A stretch of 64,000 nucleotides of DNA from an uncultured Ruminococcus sp. Its GTDB lineage: Bacteria; Bacillota; Clostridia; Oscillospirales; Ruminococcaceae. Below are positions 30,243-64,000 of the stretch, piece by piece. Each line of letters opens with the position of its first letter. Position 1 is the stretch's first letter. The position numbers were made by a program, and so were the translations under genes. The stretch lies in NCBI GenBank assembly GCA_947624255.1, contig CANQJO010000005.1, positions 62,001-126,000 of the forward strand. Reading direction: 5' to 3'. Below the pieces are notes generated by a model. It was not told the origin of the DNA. It saw nothing but the letters and a program-made list of their open reading frames with translations, and made no database searches.

Positions 30243-30272
30243 AATTGAATATATAGAAAGGTCATGAAATTT

Positions 30273-31553
30273 ATGAGTTATAAGTTTGAAACTATCCAGA
30301 TCCATGCGGGACAGGAGTCTCCCGATCCTGCCACCGATGCAAGAGCAGTACCGATCTATGCCACGACCTCATATGTTTTTAAGGATTCCGCACAGGCAGC
30401 CGCACGCTTCGGACTAACAGAGAGCGGCAACATCTATACACGTCTGATGAATCCCACATCCGATGTTCTTGAAAAGAGAATAGCGGCTCTTGAGGGCGGT
30501 GCAGCGGCTCTCTCGGTAGCAACAGGCTCGGCAGCCGTTACATATGCCGTACAGAATATCGCACTTGCAGGGGATCATGTTGTCTCTTCGTCAAACCTTT
30601 ACGGCGGTACATATAACCTCTTTGCAAATACGCTGAAAGAACAGGGAATAACTACGACTTTTGTTGATCCCTCCGATCCGGCTAATTTTGAGAACGCCAT
30701 AAAAGAGAATACAAAGCTCCTTTATGCGGAGGTTCTCGGCAACCCGAATTCCGATGTAATTGACATTGAGGCAATTGCTGATGTAGCTCACAGGCACGGT
30801 ATCCCCCTTATCGTGGACAGCACATTTGCTACGCCATACCTTATCAGACCGATCGAGCACGGCGCAGATATCGTTGTTCATTCTGCAACTAAATTTATCG
30901 GCGGACATGGTACGGTAATGGGCGGTCTTATCATAGACGGCGGAAAATTCGACTGGGCACAGAACGATAAATTTCCGGGACTTTCCAAGCCTAATCCCTC
31001 TTATCACGGGATCGTTTTCACTGAGGCTTGCGGCAATATCGCCTATGTTATGAAGATACGCACTACCTTGCTGAGAGATCAGGGAGCTGCGATCTCTCCG
31101 TTCAATTCTTTCCTGCTGCTCCAAGGACTTGAAACGCTCTCACTGAGAGTTGAGCGTCATGTTGAAAATGCGCTGAAAGTTGTGGAGTATCTGAAAAATC
31201 ATCCACAGGTCGCAAAGGTGAATCATCCCTCTCTTGAAACGGGACGGGCAAAAGAACTGTATGACAAATACTTCCCCAACGGAGCAGGCTCTATCTTCAC
31301 ATTTGAGATAAAGGGTGACGGAGAAACTGCGAAAAAGTTTACAGAAAGCCTGAAACTGTTCTCACTTCTTGCCAATGTTGCTGATGTAAAATCTCTTGTA
31401 ATTCATCCGGCATCGACAACACACTCTCAGATGAACGAAGAGGAGCTGGCATCGGCAGGAATAAGTCCGGCGACGGTGAGACTCTCGATCGGAACGGAGC
31501 ATATTGACGATATAATTGCCGATCTTGAGCAGGGCTTTGAAGCTGTCAAATAA
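30273..31553 (+). CDS. metY: O-acetylhomoserine sulfhydrylase / aminocarboxypropyltransferase
   Basis: A PLP enzyme of the Cys/Met metabolism gamma family that makes homocysteine from O-acetylhomoserine and sulfide (or methionine from methanethiol). The N terminus [15 protein letters not shown], the YTRLMNPT motif and the PLP-lysine segment [14 protein letters not shown] are characteristic; about 426 residues is the usual size for MetY, longer than MetB or MetC. The start could also be the ATG at 30264, but that is only two bases after the AGAAAGG site. Single gene with its own promoter. Confidence 0.93.
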
Positions 31554-55765: not shown

Positions 55766-56899
55766 ATGAGCGGAAAGTACAAAATGATAGATCTGTGTGC
55801 AGGTATTGGAGGAATAAGGCGAGGTTATGAGCTTACAGGCGGATTTGTGAATGTGCTTTCTGCCGAAATTGATAAAAATGCCTGCCTTACATACAAGCAC
55901 CTTTACGGCGAAGACCCTATGAACGACATCACTGCGGACGAGTTTAAGGATTTGGTGGCTAAGACCGAATATGATGTTTTGCTTGCCGGTTTTCCGTGCC
56001 AGCCCTTCAGCAGAGCCGGTAAAGAGGAAGGCTTTAAGGACAAAACGAGAGGAACACTATTTTTTGATATTGCCGAAATAATAAGCCGAACGATCCCAAA
56101 AGCGTTTATGCTTGAAAATGTAGATAATCTCATCACTCATCAAAAAGGAAAAACCTTTGCAACGATAATAGATGTGCTGGTGAATGATCTGGATTATAAA
56201 GTGATCGGGGTCACTAAAGACGATAGAGGAAAACTTATATACGATCCAAAGAGCTTTGTTCGCAATTCACGTAATTTCGGCGTTCCGCAAAACAGACCGA
56301 GAGTTTATATTATGGGATTCAGCAGAAAGCACTTTGGCAATGCTGTTGATGATCTTCCAAACACCTTGCCCACCGAACGTAAAGAAAAAATATATAAGGA
56401 TCTCAACGATCTACTTGAAATGAATGCCGATGACAAGTATTTTCTTTCTGCCGGCTATGTTGCAACGCTTGAAAAGCACAAAGCAAGGCATGAAAGCAAG
56501 GGAAACGGCTTCGGCTACAAGATCGTTAATCTTCCCGAAACAGAATCTCCCGTATCTAATGCACTGCTGGCAACCGGCGGTTCGGGAAAAGAACGCAATC
56601 TCGTAATTGATCCAAAGGAAGGTGTTGCAGGAAAGATATATCCCTCAAAACACACACCTCTCAACGATAAGGGCATCCGTGTTATGACCCCGAGAGAATG
56701 GGGAAAACTGCAAGGATTTATAAATTATGCGTTTGTAGATAAAAAGACCGGTGAGGATAATTTCAGCTTTCCCGAAAAAATGGCAGACGGTCCGAAATAT
56801 AAGCAATTCGGCAATGCCGTAACCATTCCGGCTGTTGAGGAAATGGCTGAGTTTATGAAAATGTGTTTTTTAAAATTGGATAAAAAAAATAATGGCTAG
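55766..56899 (+). CDS. DNA (cytosine-5) methyltransferase, partner of HpaII-type endonuclease
   Basis: A complete 377-residue C5 methyltransferase. Motif I is MIDLCAGIGGIRRGYE, the catalytic loop is GFPCQPFS with C78, the ENV motif is AFMLENVDNL, QNRPRVYIMGF is motif VIII, and YKQFGNAVTIP is motif X. The target-recognition region lies about 195-290. Linkage to an HpaII-family nuclease suggests CCGG as the site methylated, with the inner C modified; this is inference from the neighbour. Preceded by GAGGAG. Confidence 0.94.
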   Translation: MSGKYKMIDLCAGIGGIRRGYELTGGFVNVLSAEIDKNACLTYKHLYGEDPMNDITADEFKDLVAKTEYDVLLAGFPCQPFSRAGKEEGFKDKTRGTLFFDIAEIISRTIPKAFMLENVDNLITHQKGKTFATIIDVLVNDLDYKVIGVTKDDRGKLIYDPKSFVRNSRNFGVPQNRPRVYIMGFSRKHFGNAVDDLPNTLPTERKEKIYKDLNDLLEMNADDKYFLSAGYVATLEKHKARHESKGNGFGYKIVNLPETESPVSNALLATGGSGKERNLVIDPKEGVAGKIYPSKHTPLNDKGIRVMTPREWGKLQGFINYAFVDKKTGEDNFSFPEKMADGPKYKQFGNAVTIPAVEEMAEFMKMCFLKLDKKNNG

Positions 56900-57077
56900 A
56901 TCATCTGATATTGTTTTATTTAAAGAGGAAAAACGTTCTCCTATTGGTATCAGCATAAAGACAAGTTTGCGTGAAAGATATAAGCAAGCTGATCTTAAAG
57001 CGGTTGCACTTAAATATGTTCATCGAAATGCAGAAAACTGCCTTATATCTTTGCAATCAAGTGAAGTTGAAGTGTAA
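56892..57077 (+). CDS. Short fragment ORF within the restriction-modification island
   Basis: A 61-codon ORF overlapping the methyltransferase end by eight bases (start MARSSDIVLFKEEKRSPIG, then RERYKQADLKAVALKYVHR). The composition looks like a real protein start, but the frame ends abruptly and coding-like sequence continues in another frame to about 57150. It has no strong ribosome site of its own. Probably a truncated or frameshifted island gene; function not recognised. Confidence 0.45.
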   Translation: MARSSDIVLFKEEKRSPIGISIKTSLRERYKQADLKAVALKYVHRNAENCLISLQSSEVEV

Positions 57078-57163
57078 AGCAGAAGCCGAAAGATGGTTCT
57101 TTATTGAGATTGAACAGAATAATAGCAGCTGATACCGGAACACTAATAAAATAGGAGAAAGAT

Positions 57164-58243
57164 ATGACAGGTAATATAGGCGAATGGAGCGAGCTCTATA
57201 CAATGTTCAAGCTGTTGGCAGACGGAAAGTTGTATGCTGCCGATGCCGACACAAATAAAATACCCGATATATATTATGACGTTCTGAAAATAATCAGAGG
57301 AACCGGAAACGATAAGTTGGAATACAGGCGCAACGGTGAAGTTAATGTCGTTAATGCAGCTACCGGTGATATCATGTGTTCCGTTCCAATAAGCAGCTTT
57401 GTTGAACAGACTGACAAGCTGCTAAAAAGCATCAAAAAGAAAAAAGATGAAAAGACAAAGGGAGCTTTTGAATTGCCGGAGTCATGGGAATTTGCTCAGT
57501 CATTAAAGTGTAAAACGCTGAAAGCTAAAGCACAGGATAAAGCCGATATTGTTCTTATGGTGCATGATATAATGTGCGGCAGAGATGATACATTCGGATT
57601 CAGTATAAAGTCGCAGCTCGGCAGTCCGTCAACATTGTTTAATGCGTCAAAAGCTACCAATTTTACATATAAGCTGAAAGGACACAAGCTGAATAATGAC
57701 GAAAAAGCAGCCTTTGAAGGCTTTAAGAAGTTTGCCGATAAGTTTGAATTTCTCGATTCACTCGGCACGGACATAGAGTTTGTTGCTGTCGATAACAAAA
57801 CACTTGAATTTAACTTGAAAATGGTAACATCGGAAATGCCGTTAATATTTGCAGCAATGGTTGAGAATTACTATAAAGGCAAGTCGGCTATGCTTTCGGA
57901 ATTGATAGATATTATAGCCGAAGACGGGGTTATCCGTACATTGGATAATAAGGTTTATTTACGACATAAGGTTAAAGAGCTGCTGACAAACATTGCATTG
58001 GGAATGGTTCCTGCCAAATTATGGACAGGCGATTATGAAGCAACAGGCGGATATATCATCGTTAAAGATGACGGTGATGTGGTTTGCTATCATATCTACA
58101 ACCGGAATGCTTTCAGGAACTATATGCTTGCAAATACAAGGTTCGATACGCCGAGTAAGAGTAAACACGGTTTTGGCACGATCTACGAAGAGGACGACAA
58201 GCAGTTTTTGAAGTTGAATGTACAGATCAGGTTTGTGAAGTGA
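57164..58243 (+). CDS. HpaII-family type II restriction endonuclease
   Basis: A 359-residue protein with the pattern of the HpaII restriction endonuclease family: N-terminal GNIGEWSELYTMFKLLADGKLY, a core FGFSIKSQLGSPSTLFNAS that likely holds the nuclease Asp/Lys residues, and the C-terminal YDGD-like VKDDGDVVCYHIYN region. Together with the upstream C5 methyltransferase and Vsr it makes a typical CCGG-type restriction-modification system. It has a good ribosome site (AGGAGAAAG, about 57150-57158) and low GC relative to the window's metabolic genes. Confidence 0.87.
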   Translation: MTGNIGEWSELYTMFKLLADGKLYAADADTNKIPDIYYDVLKIIRGTGNDKLEYRRNGEVNVVNAATGDIMCSVPISSFVEQTDKLLKSIKKKKDEKTKGAFELPESWEFAQSLKCKTLKAKAQDKADIVLMVHDIMCGRDDTFGFSIKSQLGSPSTLFNASKATNFTYKLKGHKLNNDEKAAFEGFKKFADKFEFLDSLGTDIEFVAVDNKTLEFNLKMVTSEMPLIFAAMVENYYKGKSAMLSELIDIIAEDGVIRTLDNKVYLRHKVKELLTNIALGMVPAKLWTGDYEATGGYIIVKDDGDVVCYHIYNRNAFRNYMLANTRFDTPSKSKHGFGTIYEEDDKQFLKLNVQIRFVK

Positions 58244-58258
58244 AAGAAAGTATTTATA

Positions 58259-58500
58259 ATGAGCAACTTATTTTATGACGGTTTTTTTAACTTGCAGTAT
58301 GTTAACTCTGATTACTATCATCAGAATCAGGAACAGATCGCTCAATATGAGCAGAAGCAAAGTGAAGAAATTCAGAACGTGGTGAAAGCAGTTCACGATC
58401 TTTGTAAGGCAGTAAAAAACTTGATCCACAGAATCAGCGGCAGGCATTCGGTGCGGTTCTTGCAGTAATGGCGTTAGAGTTTGAGTGTAAGAACAGATGA
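58259..58500 (+). pseudogene. Small island gene with a frameshift in an A-run
   Basis: The ATG at 58259 opens a hydrophilic small protein (MSNLFYDGFFNLQYVN…VVKAVHDLCKAVKN). At the run of six A near 58410 the frame goes to an early stop at 58468. Shifting by one base continues cleanly as DPQNQRQAFGAVLAVMALEFECKNR to a stop at 58498-58500. The second part reads as a natural protein end. This could be a real lesion, phase variation in the A-run, or a sequencing error. Function unknown. Confidence 0.6.
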
Positions 58501-58534
58501 TCACAAAATAGAAGTGTATCCGTATAATAAAAAT

Positions 58535-58764
58535 CCTCATTCCACAGTAATAGCAATTATTACGACAATAATTTGTAAATTCAATCAGTCCTATGATATA
58601 TACTTCATCGCCATAAATGCTCCGACGCTTTTCATCGGATGCTCTGTAAAGATATTCATCAAATGTATCGCTTTCCGGCAATACCTTAACTCATCATCAG
58701 AAAGATTACGATCACATTTCAGCTATTCAATAATATCCGCCTTTCTGATCGTTACGATCCACAT
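58535..58764 (-). pseudogene. 5' remnant of a hydE-like radical SAM gene
   Basis: On the minus strand an interrupted frame reads MWIVTIRKADIIE, a stop, LKCDRNLSDDELR, then after a one-base shift DTFDEYLYRASDEKRRSIYG, VYIIGLIEFTNYCRNNCYYCGMR, where homology ends near 58535. CRNNCYYC is the CxxxCxxC radical SAM motif; IEFTNYC and the lead-in fit HydE, the [FeFe]-hydrogenase maturase (BioB and PylB are related alternatives). A nonsense codon, a frameshift and loss of the rest make it dead. The loss point abuts the end of the restriction island. Confidence 0.75.
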
Positions 58765-58811: not shown

Positions 58812-59987
58812 TCAAAAATCGAATTTCTCTGCGTTTTCCTCCTCACCATACGTCAGTATGCTTTCGCCGTCATCCTTGATAAATTTGTTTTTTGACCGCA
58901 TATTTTTGCAATGTTTAATTGGCGGAGCAATATATTTTTCTACATTATCTTTTATATTTTTTATCAAGGCAGTTTCACCGCACACTTTGCAGTTTTTATT
59001 TTTTTTAGGAAATTCAGCGATTCGTGTTTTCATGGATAAACCGTCTATAATAAATATTTTACCTGTAAGCAGTTCGCCAATTCCCAGAATATATTTTATT
59101 GCCTCAAGTGCCTGAATACTTCCGATTATTCCTGCCACAGCACCGATAATTCCGGCCTGACTGCAATTCGGAACATCTTCGGGAATATCCTCAAAAATGC
59201 ACCTGTAACAGGGAAAATTTCCCGGAACATATGTCATTATCTGCCCCTCAAAACGCAAAATTCCTGCATGACAAAACGGTTTTTTCAGCAGTACACAGAC
59301 ATCGTTGATGAGAAACTTGGTTTCAAAATTATCAACTGCATCTATAATAAAATCGTAATCTCTAATTATATTTTCCGCATTTTCGGGAGTAAGATCTTCC
59401 GGATATGCAGTAACTTTAATTTCCGGATTCAGCGCAAAAATATGCTTTTTTGCAGATATTGCCTTATTTTCAGAAATAGTATCGGTCGTATGAATAATTT
59501 GTCGCTGAAGATTGGAGATGCTCACAGTATCAGCGTCCATAATGCCTATATTTCCTATTCCTGCTCCGGCAAGATAAAGAGCCGCCGGAGAACCAAGTCC
59601 ACCTGCCCCGATAATTAAAACCCTTGCATTTTTCAGTTTTCGCTGACCGTCACTGCCTACCTGTGGTAAAATGATCTGCCTGTCATATCTGTTTATTTCT
59701 TGTTCGCTGAGTTTTTCAAAATTTTCTTTAAGCCATGCCGTATAACCGCCCGAAAGACTGTACGCATCATAGCCTTTTTCTCTTAAATTTTCCGCAAGCT
59801 TAATGCTTTCTCTGCCAATTGTACAGTAAATAATAATTGGCTTATCTTTTGGCAATTTATCGGATTTTTCGCTTAATAAAACGGCTTGAGGAATATGTCC
59901 GTTCTGATAAGCAATTTCGCTCCGCATATCTACAAATAAATAAGAATCATCAGGCATAGCTGAAATCTGATGTAACGTTAATTCCAT
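58812..59987 (-). CDS. Rhodanese-ThiF/MoeB/HesA fusion, sulfur-carrier adenylyltransferase-like
   Basis: The N-terminal ~90 residues are a rhodanese domain with an active-site loop YCTIGRES (C55). Residues ~105-345 form an E1-like ThiF/MoeB fold: NRYDRQIILPQVGSDGQ, the ATP loop VLIIGAGGLGSP and IDAVDNFETKFLIND. Zinc ligands are CYRC and, later, CKVC. The last ~45 residues are charged and unassigned. It could adenylate and sulfurate a ThiS/MoaD-like carrier. Here it ends the nitrogenase-like gene run, the slot held by hesA in many nif clusters. Rhodanese usually sits C-terminal in MoeBR fusions; the N-terminal order is unusual. Confidence 0.9.
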   Translation of the reverse strand: MELTLHQISAMPDDSYLFVDMRSEIAYQNGHIPQAVLLSEKSDKLPKDKPIIIYCTIGRESIKLAENLREKGYDAYSLSGGYTAWLKENFEKLSEQEINRYDRQIILPQVGSDGQRKLKNARVLIIGAGGLGSPAALYLAGAGIGNIGIMDADTVSISNLQRQIIHTTDTISENKAISAKKHIFALNPEIKVTAYPEDLTPENAENIIRDYDFIIDAVDNFETKFLINDVCVLLKKPFCHAGILRFEGQIMTYVPGNFPCYRCIFEDIPEDVPNCSQAGIIGAVAGIIGSIQALEAIKYILGIGELLTGKIFIIDGLSMKTRIAEFPKKNKNCKVCGETALIKNIKDNVEKYIAPPIKHCKNMRSKNKFIKDDGESILTYGEEENAEKFDF

Positions 59988-60159
59988 GTTCTATCTCCCT
60001 AATACTATAATTTGTTGTTTACTATTTGACGATATTCACATAGTGAACGTAGTGTGCGAATGTGCAAGGAATTACAGATAGATCTGTTAATAAAAAGCCG
60101 AACAAACGAAGATTTGTGAAATTCAAAAGCCTCCGGATGTCCGGTCAATTATTACTATT

Positions 60160-60564
60160 TTATTTTCTAAGCGATTCGTGATTGTCAATTCTGCTGTAAT
60201 ACGATGTGATTTTCTGCAGCGCTTCATCGACGGAGCAATTCACATCAAATACCGAAATTGCGAGCTTTTCAAGCTGTTTTCTTATGGGGAAACCGATTTT
60301 CGTACAGACAACACATCGGCAGTCAGAAATCAAATCAACTTTTTCGGAATGCTGTCCGCCGTTCCCACAGCCGCTCCCACAACCGGAACCGCACCCTTTT
60401 TCACAATTTTCGAGAGCAATTTTCTCTGATTCACGGAAAATTCTTTTTTCAGCAGAAATAATATTTTCGCCGTTAATTTCATAAATCGTGAACCATTCAG
60501 CAGAGCCGAAAGTGCGGTCAATATTCACGCCGTCCGAAGTCGCCGCAGCTATTTTATAAGGCAT
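60160..60564 (-). CDS. NifX/NifB-C-terminal-like (FeMo-cofactor carrier family) protein with Cys-rich insert
   Basis: A 134-residue protein of the dinitrogenase iron-molybdenum cofactor family: MPYKIAAATSDG at the N terminus, FTIYEI, and a C-terminal CRCVVCTKIG with GFPIRKQLEKLAISVFDV. Between them lies a CEKGCGSGCGSGCGNGG stretch (about residues 54-70), four cysteines separated by Gly/Ser, likely a metal-binding loop. Family members carry Fe-S or FeMo cofactor precursors. It follows the two nitrogenase-like subunits by nine bases. The ATG follows GAGGTGG. Confidence 0.85.
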   Translation of the reverse strand: MPYKIAAATSDGVNIDRTFGSAEWFTIYEINGENIISAEKRIFRESEKIALENCEKGCGSGCGSGCGNGGQHSEKVDLISDCRCVVCTKIGFPIRKQLEKLAISVFDVNCSVDEALQKITSYYSRIDNHESLRK

Positions 60565-60573
60565 ATTTCCACC

Positions 60574-61872
60574 TCAATTCCATCGCTGAACAGCAACGGA
60601 GTAAATATCCTCGATCAGGCGAATTCCACCCGTATAGCCGACATAGAAATCATCAAGAACAACTTTATCCTGCACAGGCCACGAAATAATCAGATAATGA
60701 CCAAATAATTTTTCGGTGATTTCTTTTTCGTAGTAACTGCCCAAAATCAGCGGATAACCGTGATAATCATGCGACTGAATTTCGTTATGAATTTTATAAC
60801 TGTCCGTTTCAAATTCGACTTCTGCCTTAATTCCATAATTCAAGTTTGCAAATTCTGCTTTTATCTGCTCCTGAAAATTTTTCGGAGTATCGTCTGTTAT
60901 AAACTGCTTTGCCGGAACAAGTCCCAGATCGTTTACAAGGAATTTCGTAATTCCCAGCGAATATTGCGCATCTGCAACAACAGAAAATTGCTTCGCCATA
61001 ACACGAGTTTCAAGGAACATATCCGCATAGCGTTCAATGAGATAATAATAATATTTTTCGTGTTCGGTAATTACCTTTTCCACGTTTTCAGACGGAATAC
61101 CCGCAAATTCTCCAACGGCACGCAAAAACTTGCTTGTTTCAAATGCACCTATAGGCAAAGTCGGGTAATGCAGATACGGGATGCCGAGTTTTTTCTCCAT
61201 TTTCTTCATATTTCCGACCGATACCCACGGCGAAACAAGGAGATTAAACTGCGCTTTCGGAATCCTGTCAATATTCTTGATTCCACGTTCATAGCCGAAA
61301 ATCGTGTTCGGCGTAAGTCCGATTTCAGCGATCAATTTTTCAAGTTCACGAATATTTCCAAGCCAGAAAAGATCCTGATACGGAACATCAGCCCAGATAT
61401 TCACAAGCCCTTGTTCTTTTTCGTCCGATTTTTCAAGATACTGCTCAATAATTGCATCAATGACCTGTTCATGACCTTTGTAATTATTGCCTTTAAATCC
61501 TGCTGTAGAGGCGTAAATTACAGGCTTTTCGGCATCTTCAAAACGGCTTACGACTTCACCCGTATCATCGCCGACAATTTCGGGAATACAGCCGCTCAGT
61601 ACCACAAACAAGTCCGCATCAATTACTTTCAGAGCGTTTTCAATTGTGGTTTCCAGCTTTTTCACACCACCGAAAACAACATCTTTTTCATTGATACTCG
61701 TGCAGGGAAAAATATTCGGCGAAAAATAACCGCTGCTGCCAATCGAGTCGGAGAGTTTCTGCGCACAGCCCGGACCTGAATGCAGTATAGGAATTGCCCT
61801 TGAAATTGCCTGAACCGTCTGCATTGCGCCGAGTGCACATTTGTATCTCTGTTTGTCAAGTAATTTCGCCAT
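60574..61872 (-). CDS. Nitrogenase component-1-like protein, NifK/NifN type subunit
   Basis: A 432-residue member of the oxidoreductase nitrogenase component 1 family. Three cysteines occupy the P-cluster-type places: C12 (KCALGAMQ), C36 (HSGPGCAQ) and C95 (LSGCIPEIVGDD). The N terminus is short, as in NifN or MarK-like proteins, without the long NifK extension. It overlaps the partner subunit stop by one base (TAATG), implying a 1:1 complex. Whether it belongs to an enzyme or to a NifEN-like scaffold cannot be decided from this gene alone. Confidence 0.85.
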   Translation of the reverse strand: MAKLLDKQRYKCALGAMQTVQAISRAIPILHSGPGCAQKLSDSIGSSGYFSPNIFPCTSINEKDVVFGGVKKLETTIENALKVIDADLFVVLSGCIPEIVGDDTGEVVSRFEDAEKPVIYASTAGFKGNNYKGHEQVIDAIIEQYLEKSDEKEQGLVNIWADVPYQDLFWLGNIRELEKLIAEIGLTPNTIFGYERGIKNIDRIPKAQFNLLVSPWVSVGNMKKMEKKLGIPYLHYPTLPIGAFETSKFLRAVGEFAGIPSENVEKVITEHEKYYYYLIERYADMFLETRVMAKQFSVVADAQYSLGITKFLVNDLGLVPAKQFITDDTPKNFQEQIKAEFANLNYGIKAEVEFETDSYKIHNEIQSHDYHGYPLILGSYYEKEITEKLFGHYLIISWPVQDKVVLDDFYVGYTGGIRLIEDIYSVAVQRWN

Positions 61873-63335
61873 TATTTTTTCGCCTCCTCAAGAAATTTGT
61901 CAACATTTTGCTGATACCACCAGTCGGTGTACGGCAGTTTCACACGCTTTGCAAGATTCTGCTCAAAACTCCTGTTGTGAATGCTGTCAAGAATTGATTT
62001 TGCAAATTCAAGCGTATGTTTATAGCCGAAAATCATATACTCATCAGCAACATAAACAGCAGGCGTGCCGTTTTTAATTGCCCAGACGGTCGAACCGGGG
62101 TGACGTGAAAGATACAAGTCGGGCTGATATTTATGCAGAATATTCATAACTTCATAATTTTGCTGATCGGCAACACTCGCCTCAAAATCAACATCATTTT
62201 CAAGCAGATATTTCATAGATGGCGGAACATCGCCGTTTTCATACTTCTTGTCATAATGCCAAGCCAACGCCCAGACTACCTCAATTCCAAGCTCATTCAG
62301 CACTCTTGAAACCTCAAAAGTATAGCCCGGTCCCATACCTAAAACGGCACGCAGACCTTTCAATTCTTTTTTGATCTCCTCAATTTGCGGAATATAAATT
62401 TCACGCTGTTCGGCAATATATTTTTCAACTTTTTCGCTCCTGTCGGTCACTTTGCCGATTTCACGCAGCCACGTTTCAAAGCCTGCAATTCCAAGCGGAT
62501 TTATAGTCCTGATGTACGGAACTCCGTATTTTTCTTCAAGTCCGTTGCCGAGATAATTTCCAAGAGTACCGCAGATACAAGTCGTTGCAAGCGATTCCGA
62601 AATATGACTTAATTCCTCGACCGTTGAATTACAGTAGAGGAAAATCGGCTCTAAATCGAAATTCTTGAAAATTTCAATAATTTCAGGTCTTGCGCTTTCG
62701 TAGAAATTCTTGAAATTTATCGTATTTCTTTTCTGCTTCGGCGGCTTGACAATACTGCTCAAAACAGCATGGTCTGAAATATCAAATCCTGTCGCCCATA
62801 TTCTTGACTTGAACCCCTCACAATGCACCGCAACGATCGGCACGTCAATTTCTTCTTTGACCTCATCAACAACGCTGTCAATATCCTCGCCGATAATTCC
62901 CGTTGCGCAGGAACTCGTCACAAAAATCGCTTTCGGAGAATAACGCCTGTTGACTTCAAGAATGATTTTTCGCAGCGACTCAGCAGAGCCGAAAATCGTG
63001 TCTTTTTCGTTCATGTCAGTGCCGACATAGACCATATTATTGGTAACTCCACGCTTTTTTGCCATGACTTTATCAAGGTAATACGCACCTGCGCTTGCCA
63101 CGGAGCAGCCTGCCGGACCGTGATGAATTATTGCAACATCACGAATTGCCGAAAGCTGACCCAATGCGCAGCTTGAAAGACAGGTACTTGACTGCGAAAA
63201 ACAGCGTGAACAGCCTTTCAGCGTGCCGCATTCACTTTGTTTCGCAAGGTCGCCGAGAGTGCCGATATAACCCGTAATTGACCCTATACGGTTCTCTCTT
63301 GTGGCAACGTTGGAATTATTAAGATTTATCGCCAT
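61872..63335 (-). CDS. Nitrogenase component-1-like protein, NifD/NifE type subunit
   Basis: A 487-residue nitrogenase component 1 family protein. P-cluster-type cysteines are C56 (SSCALGQ), C77 (HHGPAGCSV) and C143 (TSSCATGIIGED). Four extra cysteines lie upstream (C36, C42, C45 and C52). A Cys in TTCICGTLGNYLGNG falls near the FeMo-cofactor Cys of NifD. The region matching the NifD cofactor His (HSWDYSGP) reads VADEYMIFG, so that His is absent. This favours a nitrogenase-like reductase or scaffold over true NifD. It starts 11 bases after cysK, in the same operon. Confidence 0.88.
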   Translation of the reverse strand: MAINLNNSNVATRENRIGSITGYIGTLGDLAKQSECGTLKGCSRCFSQSSTCLSSCALGQLSAIRDVAIIHHGPAGCSVASAGAYYLDKVMAKKRGVTNNMVYVGTDMNEKDTIFGSAESLRKIILEVNRRYSPKAIFVTSSCATGIIGEDIDSVVDEVKEEIDVPIVAVHCEGFKSRIWATGFDISDHAVLSSIVKPPKQKRNTINFKNFYESARPEIIEIFKNFDLEPIFLYCNSTVEELSHISESLATTCICGTLGNYLGNGLEEKYGVPYIRTINPLGIAGFETWLREIGKVTDRSEKVEKYIAEQREIYIPQIEEIKKELKGLRAVLGMGPGYTFEVSRVLNELGIEVVWALAWHYDKKYENGDVPPSMKYLLENDVDFEASVADQQNYEVMNILHKYQPDLYLSRHPGSTVWAIKNGTPAVYVADEYMIFGYKHTLEFAKSILDSIHNRSFEQNLAKRVKLPYTDWWYQQNVDKFLEEAKK

Positions 63336-63346
63336 AAAATCGCCCT

Positions 63347-64000
63347 CTATTCTACTTTGAAATCTTCATTGAACATATTTGTTGAAAGATACCGCAGACC
63401 CGTATCCGGCAAAACGGCAACTATGGTTTTTCCCGCATTTTCGGGTTTTTTTGCAAGCTCTAAAGCAACATGAATTGCCGCACCGGATGATGCACCGATC
63501 AAAATTCCGTCTGTCCGTGCCACTTCTCTTGCCGCTGCATATGCCTGATTTGTATGGACTTCGTACCACTCGTCATAAACTTTTCTGTCAAGATTTGCAG
63601 GAATAAAGCGTTCCTCGACATTTTCAAACGGATGAACGCCCGTAATTTCCTCTTGGTCGGGATTTTCGGGAGTCTGGAAAGAATCCGGCGTAGGCTGAAT
63701 TCCGACAACTTTAATATCGGGATTTTTCGATTTCAGGAAATTTCCCGTGCCCGAAAGAGTACCGCCTGTGCCGACATTTGCTACGAGAATATCGACTTTT
63801 CCGTCCGTATCTTCCCAGATTTCCGGACCTGTTGTGTTGAAATGGATTTCGGGATTTGCGGAATTTCTCGTCTGATCTGCAAACCACACTTTCTGCCCCT
63901 GCACAGCTCTTTCAAGAGCCTTTACACACTCAACAAAATCCGCACCGTACTTCTCCATACTTTCCACAATTTCGGGAACTTCCGTAATTTTGACCGTTTC
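63347..64000 (-). CDS. cysK: Cysteine synthase (partial; N terminus beyond the window)
   Basis: The visible 217 residues are the C-terminal two thirds of an O-acetylserine sulfhydrylase. The PLP-phosphate loop is GTGGTLSGTG, followed by VVGIQP, GILIGASSGAA and the C-terminal LPDTGLRYLSTNMF. The frame stays open to base 64000. It makes cysteine from O-acetylserine and sulfide. Placement at the front of the nitrogenase-like genes with only 11 bases between suggests a shared transcript and a sulfur link. Confidence 0.93.
   Translation of the reverse strand, partial: ETVKITEVPEIVESMEKYGADFVECVKALERAVQGQKVWFADQTRNSANPEIHFNTTGPEIWEDTDGKVDILVANVGTGGTLSGTGNFLKSKNPDIKVVGIQPTPDSFQTPENPDQEEITGVHPFENVEERFIPANLDRKVYDEWYEVHTNQAYAAAREVARTDGILIGASSGAAIHVALELAKKPENAGKTIVAVLPDTGLRYLSTNMFNEDFKVE

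Follow-up and report, generated by a model that had tools for sequence, protein, structure and literature searches.

What does a nitrogenase-like gene pair do beside a cysteine synthase gene in an uncultured Ruminococcus? The question is raised by the end of a 64,000-nucleotide stretch of DNA (the window; G000:C5:62001-126000) from a 2.24-Mb draft genome (99.6% complete, 48 contigs). Group IV nitrogenase-like enzymes are numerous, and most are of unassigned function. Here, we report that the two component-1 subunits of this locus (D and K) are, by their sequences, a sister lineage of methylthio-alkane reductase (Mar), not Mar itself. We put at about 70% the probability that they form an ATP-driven reductase of carbon-sulfur (C-S) bonds, which would carry a Mar-type Fe8S9C cluster and pass reduced sulfur to cysteine synthase.

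The gene set, the Mar-type cluster ligands, the phylogeny and a conserved linkage to the cysteine synthase gene (CysK) were computed. Open reading frame (ORF) calls and family matches gave five genes on the minus strand, in one packed run cut by the window end (Table 1); an earlier reading of the window (the original prediction) had named the same families on one strand, and the E values exclude chance. The first four genes are as close as it had described, with a gap of 11 bases between CysK-B and D, a 1-base overlap of D and K, and a gap of 9 bases between K and the NifX-type gene; the rhodanese-ThiF gene lies 172 bases farther on. Contrary to what the heading of the prediction could suggest, no gene is fused to CysK; the genes are packed side by side. 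Past the window end, where the locus was followed in a second stretch (L008; window coordinate = L008 coordinate + 55999), the same-strand order outward is CysK-B, NifH, NifX-type, NifB, a tRNA-Cys call, DUF2292, and CysK-A, followed by a split MalY/PatB-like gene, a relative of cystathionine gamma-lyase/synthase, a PaaK-like AMP ligase, an SsuC/B/A-like transporter, and LysR. The NifH-like partner expected beyond position 64000 was thereby found, as was nifB, which the same extension of the contig had been meant to look for.

Searched against all PDB sequences, D matched MarD best (9fmg; E value, 2.2e-91; next other protein, 1.7e-35) and K matched MarK best (9d9u_C; 1.4e-111; next, 1.1e-25), so the kinship to methylthio-alkane reductase suggested earlier stands, and the trees agree with it. 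With 180 D and K rows (FastTree), the window D and K fell inside Mar-containing groups, apart from the nif rows. A more careful D tree (IQ-TREE, 48 D rows) separated NifD and NifE, which group together, from the other 40 rows at 100/100; the window row and its sister rows (13) formed a clade at 99/98, and the adjoining clade of 17, which holds MarD, had 99/97 and joined the former at 100/100. Union of the window clade with NifD, the nif union covered by the approximately unbiased (AU) test, was rejected (p-AU, 6.7e-51), and a single clade of the window, its sister rows, and Mar alone was rejected more weakly (p-AU, 0.0103). D-K therefore has the architecture of Mar but belongs to a sister lineage. 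Several Mar-like D-K pairs can occur in one clostridial genome (e.g., L159, L162, and L187), and together they make up six clades or more; some class genomes carry up to four Mar-like D genes from several clades, and these other clades, too, are often near MetB-CysK pairs.

For the active site, we used the residue numbers and roles of MarD in PMC12552129, in which Arg428-His429 appears as a possible hallmark (here and below, papers are cited for passages of their text). D retains the P-cluster Cys66, Cys91, and Cys158 of MarD (C52, C77, and C143 in the window protein), and K has three in an alignment with MarK, in line with the three P-cluster-type Cys foreseen for each subunit and giving six in all. 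Also retained are Cys270 and Arg428-His429 (the Fe8S9C ligand loop) and Gln74, Trp195, Phe199, and His375 of the pocket. The replaced cofactor-His region of NifD, correctly noticed before, is where the MarD-type Arg-His loop stands, and Trp and Phe align with NifD Gln191 and His195. In 26 window-clade rows, Cys255, Arg411-His412, Trp180, Phe184, His360, and Ile179 (window numbers) do not vary. MarD His194 is present in all 12 Mar-clade rows shown and replaced in 15/15 window-clade and sister rows shown; apart from those 12, the rows shown of the 30-row superclade have Ile, Val, or Met there. Judged by these residues, D combines a Mar-type cluster site with an altered pocket. The tree and the retained ligands led us to reject a NifEN scaffold identity of D-K: the subunits do not fall inside classical NifEN, and a cofactor scaffold, one of two roles originally proposed, is unlikely for a pair that keeps both sets of cluster ligands. 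With a NifH-like protein in the same cluster as well, neither outcome named in advance as refuting the prediction occurred.

The NifH of the cluster scored 464.5 bits against the nifH equivalog model TIGR01287 (cut-off, 394.35) and in the PDB was closer to Clostridium pasteurianum NifH (1cp2; 1.6e-142) than to MarH (9fmg_D; 1e-84). In a tree of 54 rows that lacked Rhodospirillum rubrum MarH (FastTree), it grouped with the NifH of nif clusters and of other clostridial Mar-like clusters (support, 0.91); five loci (L156, L162, L172, L188, and L193) had a more divergent H, L162 being a sister-clade locus. It is the sole full-length protein of three NifH matches in its genome, the other two being short and partial, and on these comparisons it is nitrogenase-type, not MarH-type. 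NifB consists of the radical S-adenosylmethionine part only and scored 266.5 bits against TIGR01290, below the cut-off (343.65) of a model that also spans a NifX part, here a separate gene. The NifX-type protein 3' of K has, in most of 13 aligned copies, a Cys/Gly-rich loop and a DCRCVVCKKIGF-like motif, with FGSA at the site of FGHA in the NifX next to nifB; it is a probable cluster carrier.

A scan of GTDB species genomes gave at least 583 relatives among at least 595 pattern matches, of which the best 80 (82 to 99% identity over nearly full D) were analyzed; synteny was counted at those of the 80 loci with enough flank (testable loci). The hosts are Ruminococcus, Lachnospiraceae, Butyrivibrio, Lachnobacterium bovis, Ruminiclostridium hungatei, Treponema, and Bacteroidales, with metagenome-assembled genomes standing for the Bacteroidales; gut or rumen appears in many of the genome titles. 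Together with the CysK and cystathionine-enzyme genes, these titles bear out the sulfur context and the gut or rumen hosts proposed at the outset. CysK lay within 2 kb 5' of D at 64/71 testable loci, K was present at 73/73, NifH at 60/66, NifB at 53/60, and NifX 3' at 52/66; an SsuB-like ATPase (33/52), MetB-like (30/49), and MalY-like (28/49) genes were less regular, and the rhodanese-ThiF gene was near the cluster at 12/46. CysK therefore belongs to the core, and the rhodanese-ThiF gene, to which the heading of the prediction had given weight, is accessory. NifH matches above 300 bits occurred at 63/80 loci (89 to 97% identity). The clade is patchy, with 5/148 family genomes sampled (one D broken by TGA, one in fragments) and 7/391 class genomes at 77% identity or more; at most four candidates were scored per class genome, so that absence of the fused D-K protein described below proves little there. 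In one close relative (L036 8041-10901; G027:C52), D is broken by TGA and split and K is open. Near-uniform identity of the best 80 across Firmicutes, Treponema, and Bacteroidales points to a strongly selected, transferred function.

CysK-B had cysteine synthase 9nld as best PDB match (2.2e-77) and is more divergent than CysK-A, a typical cysteine synthase (9.5e-118 to 3rr2). Sulfite reductase (PF01077) had 0 matches in the genome, in a search that was positive in 11/14 control genomes. Profile matches placed SsuABC-like transporter genes in the cluster.

From the MarDK kinship, the kept ligands, NifH and NifB in the cluster, the CysK linkage, and the lack of a PF01077 match, we infer a reaction, a substrate, and a flow of sulfur to CysK. 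NifH, as an ATP-driven reductase, would pass electrons to the P-cluster of D2K2, from which they would move to an Fe8S9C cluster that NifB builds and that Cys255 and the Arg411-His412 loop of D bind. At this cluster, the C-S bond of a small organosulfur compound, imported perhaps via the SsuA-type system, would be broken by reduction, and the resulting sulfide or thiol would go to the CysK encoded between nifH and D, which would make cysteine or S-methylcysteine. The pyridoxal phosphate (PLP) enzyme at 30264, named earlier as a destination, is a possible consumer of released thiol, but the tight linkage is to CysK instead.

Several points weigh against a C-S-bond reductase. Of the MarD pocket, D conserves only a part, with Gly for Cys73, Ile for His194, and Tyr for His376; CysK linkage is incomplete (7/71 testable loci without it), and six loci with room have no NifH near, four of them in Bacteroidales. 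The SsuA-like substrate-binding protein hints at sulfonates, not thioethers, with a best PDB match of only 1.3e-4. The nifV test gave four matches in the genome, none over the cut-off (best, 68.6 of 462.9 bits), but 0/14 control genomes passed it either, which makes the test weak. 15N2 incorporation is reported with E. proavitum NfaDK, a related group IV enzyme (PMC9147875). An AlphaFold2 model of D, built from 26 near-identical rows, had a mean predicted local distance difference test score of 55.7, too low for judging the site, and was not used.

The positions of the genes named above, and of the elements treated below, are collected in Table 1.

Table 1. Features of the cluster and of the rest of the genome (window numbering unless another stretch is given)
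Feature	Position	Strand	Details
CysK-B, divergent cysteine-synthase-like PLP enzyme	63347..64000 (3' two thirds; gene to 64342)	minus	PF00291; whole gene 331 amino acids (aa)
D subunit, Mar-like component-1 alpha	61872..63335	minus	487 aa; PF00148, E = 8.2e-75
K subunit, Mar-like component-1 beta	60574..61872	minus	432 aa; PF00148, E = 5.3e-71
NifX-type protein	60160..60564	minus	PF02579, E = 5.6e-14
Rhodanese-ThiF/MoeB-like E1 fusion, accessory	58812..59987	minus	PF00899, PF00581
Cys/Met-metabolism PLP enzyme (MetY in the original prediction)	30264..31553	plus	PF01053, E = 3.7e-137; unlinked to cluster
NifH	64355-65212; profile match G000:C5:126382-127191	minus	0.4 kb past window end
tRNA-Cys-shaped RNA	66475-66547 (L008 10476-10548)	minus	tRNA-Cys by ARAGORN; between the CysK-A/DUF2292 unit and nifB
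DUF2292 gene	L008 10613-10759	minus	48 aa; 3' of CysK-A, then a hairpin with a U-tract
MalY/PatB-like gene	L008 11899-13075		split over two frames; copy in L255 one open frame, 396 aa
Fused Mar-like D-K protein	L010 4745-7486 (G000:C41)		913 aa; behind another SsuABC-like set

The strongest competitor, though we judge it unlikely, is a true methylthio-alkane reductase, which would free methanethiol from methylthio compounds for conversion by MetY to methionine, from which cystathionine enzymes would make cysteine. MarBHDK of R. rubrum (group IV-C) indeed gave the best PDB match of both subunits and shares with the window system a NifB-like maturase, a role in sulfur metabolism, the P-cluster Cys, the cluster ligands, Gln74, Trp195, Phe199, and His375; a MetY-like PLP enzyme is in the window, and MetB- and MalY-like genes are near. 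However, D stands outside the group that holds MarD (the union with Mar alone being rejected, weakly), the three pocket residues listed above are changed, with His194 lost from every window-clade and sister row shown, NifH is not MarH-like, the neighbor of D is a CysK placed between H and D, and NifX has a Cys-rich loop; the product of the window system likely goes to cysteine. The sister clade, the changed pocket, and the NifH led us to reject plain Mar membership; MarHDK itself, which the original prediction had named as a known nitrogenase-like enzyme, is not supported.

Less probable still is a sulfonate reductase like IsrHDK, with import of a sulfonate by the SsuABC-like transporter and release of sulfite. 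IsrBHDK of R. capsulatus is likewise a group IV nitrogenase-like enzyme that acquires sulfur with an SsuABC transporter; that bacterium requires SsuCAB together with Isr (PMC11423573), and the frequency of SsuB-like genes near D fits such a role. Isr needs sulfite assimilation, however, and the missing PF01077 match argues against a sulfonate-to-sulfite role. As described in PMC11423573, IsrD has a single P-cluster Cys and no cofactor ligands (no Cys275 counterpart), whereas D keeps them all, and IsrB is BciD-like, where the window cluster has NifB. The kept ligands and the lack of a PF01077 match led us to reject Isr-type membership. Two rows labeled Isr-like by residues branch elsewhere in the D tree.

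A fused D-K protein is encoded on another contig of the genome, whose four PF00148 matches all come from the cluster D-K and the fused protein. The PDB search placed it closest to MarDK; it keeps the P-cluster Cys and Cys270, lacks the Arg-His loop, and has Cys for Trp195 and Thr for His375. Unfused relatives occur in L154 and L181. It lies within 9.9 kb 3' at 14/59 testable loci, occurs anywhere in the DNA examined at 19/80, and was not found in genome G139; an obligatory partnership is not upheld by these counts, and the protein could be either another enzyme or a partner in assembly.

Very improbable is an alternative nitrogenase in which D-K would fix N2, as claimed for NfaDK, with the fused D-K as a NifEN-like scaffold: NifH over its cut-off, NifB, and a fused protein that keeps a Cys ligand without the Arg-His loop, as a scaffold might, would suit it, but Trp and Phe at the NifD Gln191 and His195 columns, the rejected NifD union, the absence of a nifV over a cut-off that no control genome passed either, the scattered occurrence of the fused gene, and the cysteine genes around the cluster speak against it. 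Mo-nitrogenase NifHDK/NifEN shares with the window system the type of NifH and NifB, the P-cluster Cys, and a Cys275 counterpart, but has Gln191, His195, and a homocitrate-side His site that are replaced in the window D, which belongs to a separate group at 100/100. NfaHDK (group IV-A; E. proavitum; relatives in Paenibacillus and Heliophilum), likened here by its description, is in group IV with NifD Cys kept and cofactor His lacking (PMC4995403 and PMC9147875); according to PMC9147875, NfaH falls with MarH, in contrast to the NifH of the present cluster. Heliophilum and E. proavitum (PMC9147875) leave room for N2 fixation by some group IV enzymes.

Group IV genes beside sulfur genes are already in print, in passages of two papers: group IV-A MarHDK-like genes near mlp clusters lie beside sulfur genes, CysK and MetY in a figure legend, the role proposed for them being to salvage methionine or to obtain sulfur from methyl sulfides (PMC10418091), and a termite-gut spirochete has group IV nifDK in an operon with cysteine synthase (PMC13067680). 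Among the open-licence PMC papers listed by our searches, these were the nearest accounts, and no listing showed a description of the window clade. Lachnospira and Butyrivibrio with cluster III nifH are candidate human-gut diazotrophs (Igai et al. 2016; PMC4995403); the same paper notes that the cofactor His is missing from NifD of L. multipara, of a Ruminococcaceae strain, and of P. bryantii but kept in other Clostridiales of the clade concerned, and it reports 15N2 incorporation by faeces. At Lachnospira (L110) and Butyrivibrio (L113-L115, L118, and L122) loci, NifH lies inside a cluster of the present type, and some gut nifH of these genera proposed as diazotrophic may belong to this system. 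Because the NifH passes the NCBI nifH cut-off, surveys of nifH would score these bacteria as nitrogen-fixing; since genes and active-site residues make a C-S-bond role most likely, the nitrogenase-type gene of the cluster would be unreliable evidence of nitrogen fixation. Cultured hosts (Ruminiclostridium hungatei, Butyrivibrio hungatei, Lachnobacterium bovis, and Treponema sp. C6A8) make the system testable.

Upstream of nifB lies a tRNA-Cys-shaped RNA. The genome has 47 RF00005 matches, three of them tRNA-Cys by ARAGORN: a canonical one on C6, one in an array of ten tRNA genes (L208 323-1148; G000:C34), and the nifB-upstream element, which differs in sequence from the canonical copy. We compared 27 copies (25 of the 80 loci, including L066, plus the window and genome G143). 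Alignment of 25 copies, 23 of them distinct, gave standard pairs in 99.3% of 437 pair cells and changes on both sides in 10/19 pairs; neither value was reached in any of 500 shuffles. The anticodon is GCA in 26/27, L066 having GAA; at the discriminator position 19/27 have G, 8/27 have A, and none has U. No copy has A at position 14, and 3/27 encode CCA. Among the major identity elements of tRNA-Cys is U73 (PMC9976931), and its absence makes charging by cysteinyl-tRNA synthetase doubtful. With a covariance model, the copies scored 77 to 100 bits, and the next matches, taken as ordinary tRNAs, reached 61. Of 59 nifB loci whose upstream flank was 150 bases or longer, 24 have the element and 35 lack it. 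Matches above 90 bits occurred in 3/148 family genomes, and an E value of 1e-19 or better in 1/394 order genomes, the window's own. In G143, which is not among the 20 family genomes with a D match, it comes after LysR-MetB-MalY-CysK, and the stretch read contains no nif gene.

An ordinary tRNA-Cys was rejected, because the element lacks U73 and a canonical tRNA-Cys exists on C6; a known riboswitch or T-box was also rejected, as Rfam gave only tRNA in L008-L010 and nothing in six element-less loci. In the window genome, the element sits 3' of a hairpin with a U-tract (-27.8 kcal/mol); a pattern scan around it, which did not list the hairpin, found no promoter. The open-licence PMC literature yielded no paper on such an element. 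We take it for an RNA of the cysteine genes, perhaps a leader or processed decoy; if regulatory, it would be an unusual way of sensing cysteine. Tentatively, the parts may be joined into a distinct, gut-widespread class of enzyme that would cut C-S bonds to give sulfur at the level of sulfide, from which cysteine would be made directly, and not methanethiol for methionine. In it, common nitrogenase-type NifH and NifB would serve the separate and the fused D-K, and, in many lineages, the tRNA-Cys-shaped leader (GCA, without U73) may act as a reporter of cysteine supply rather than be charged.

The DUF2292 gene beside CysK-A is presumably of the YezD type. On the far side of the cluster, a short minus-strand ORF (58268-58681) matches HydE over 45 amino acids near its start (1.3e-14) and then diverges, so that it looks like a HydE remnant. 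Beside the cluster, at 55766-58243, are a cytosine-methylase-like ORF and a 359-amino-acid ORF, which we take to be a possible restriction pair.

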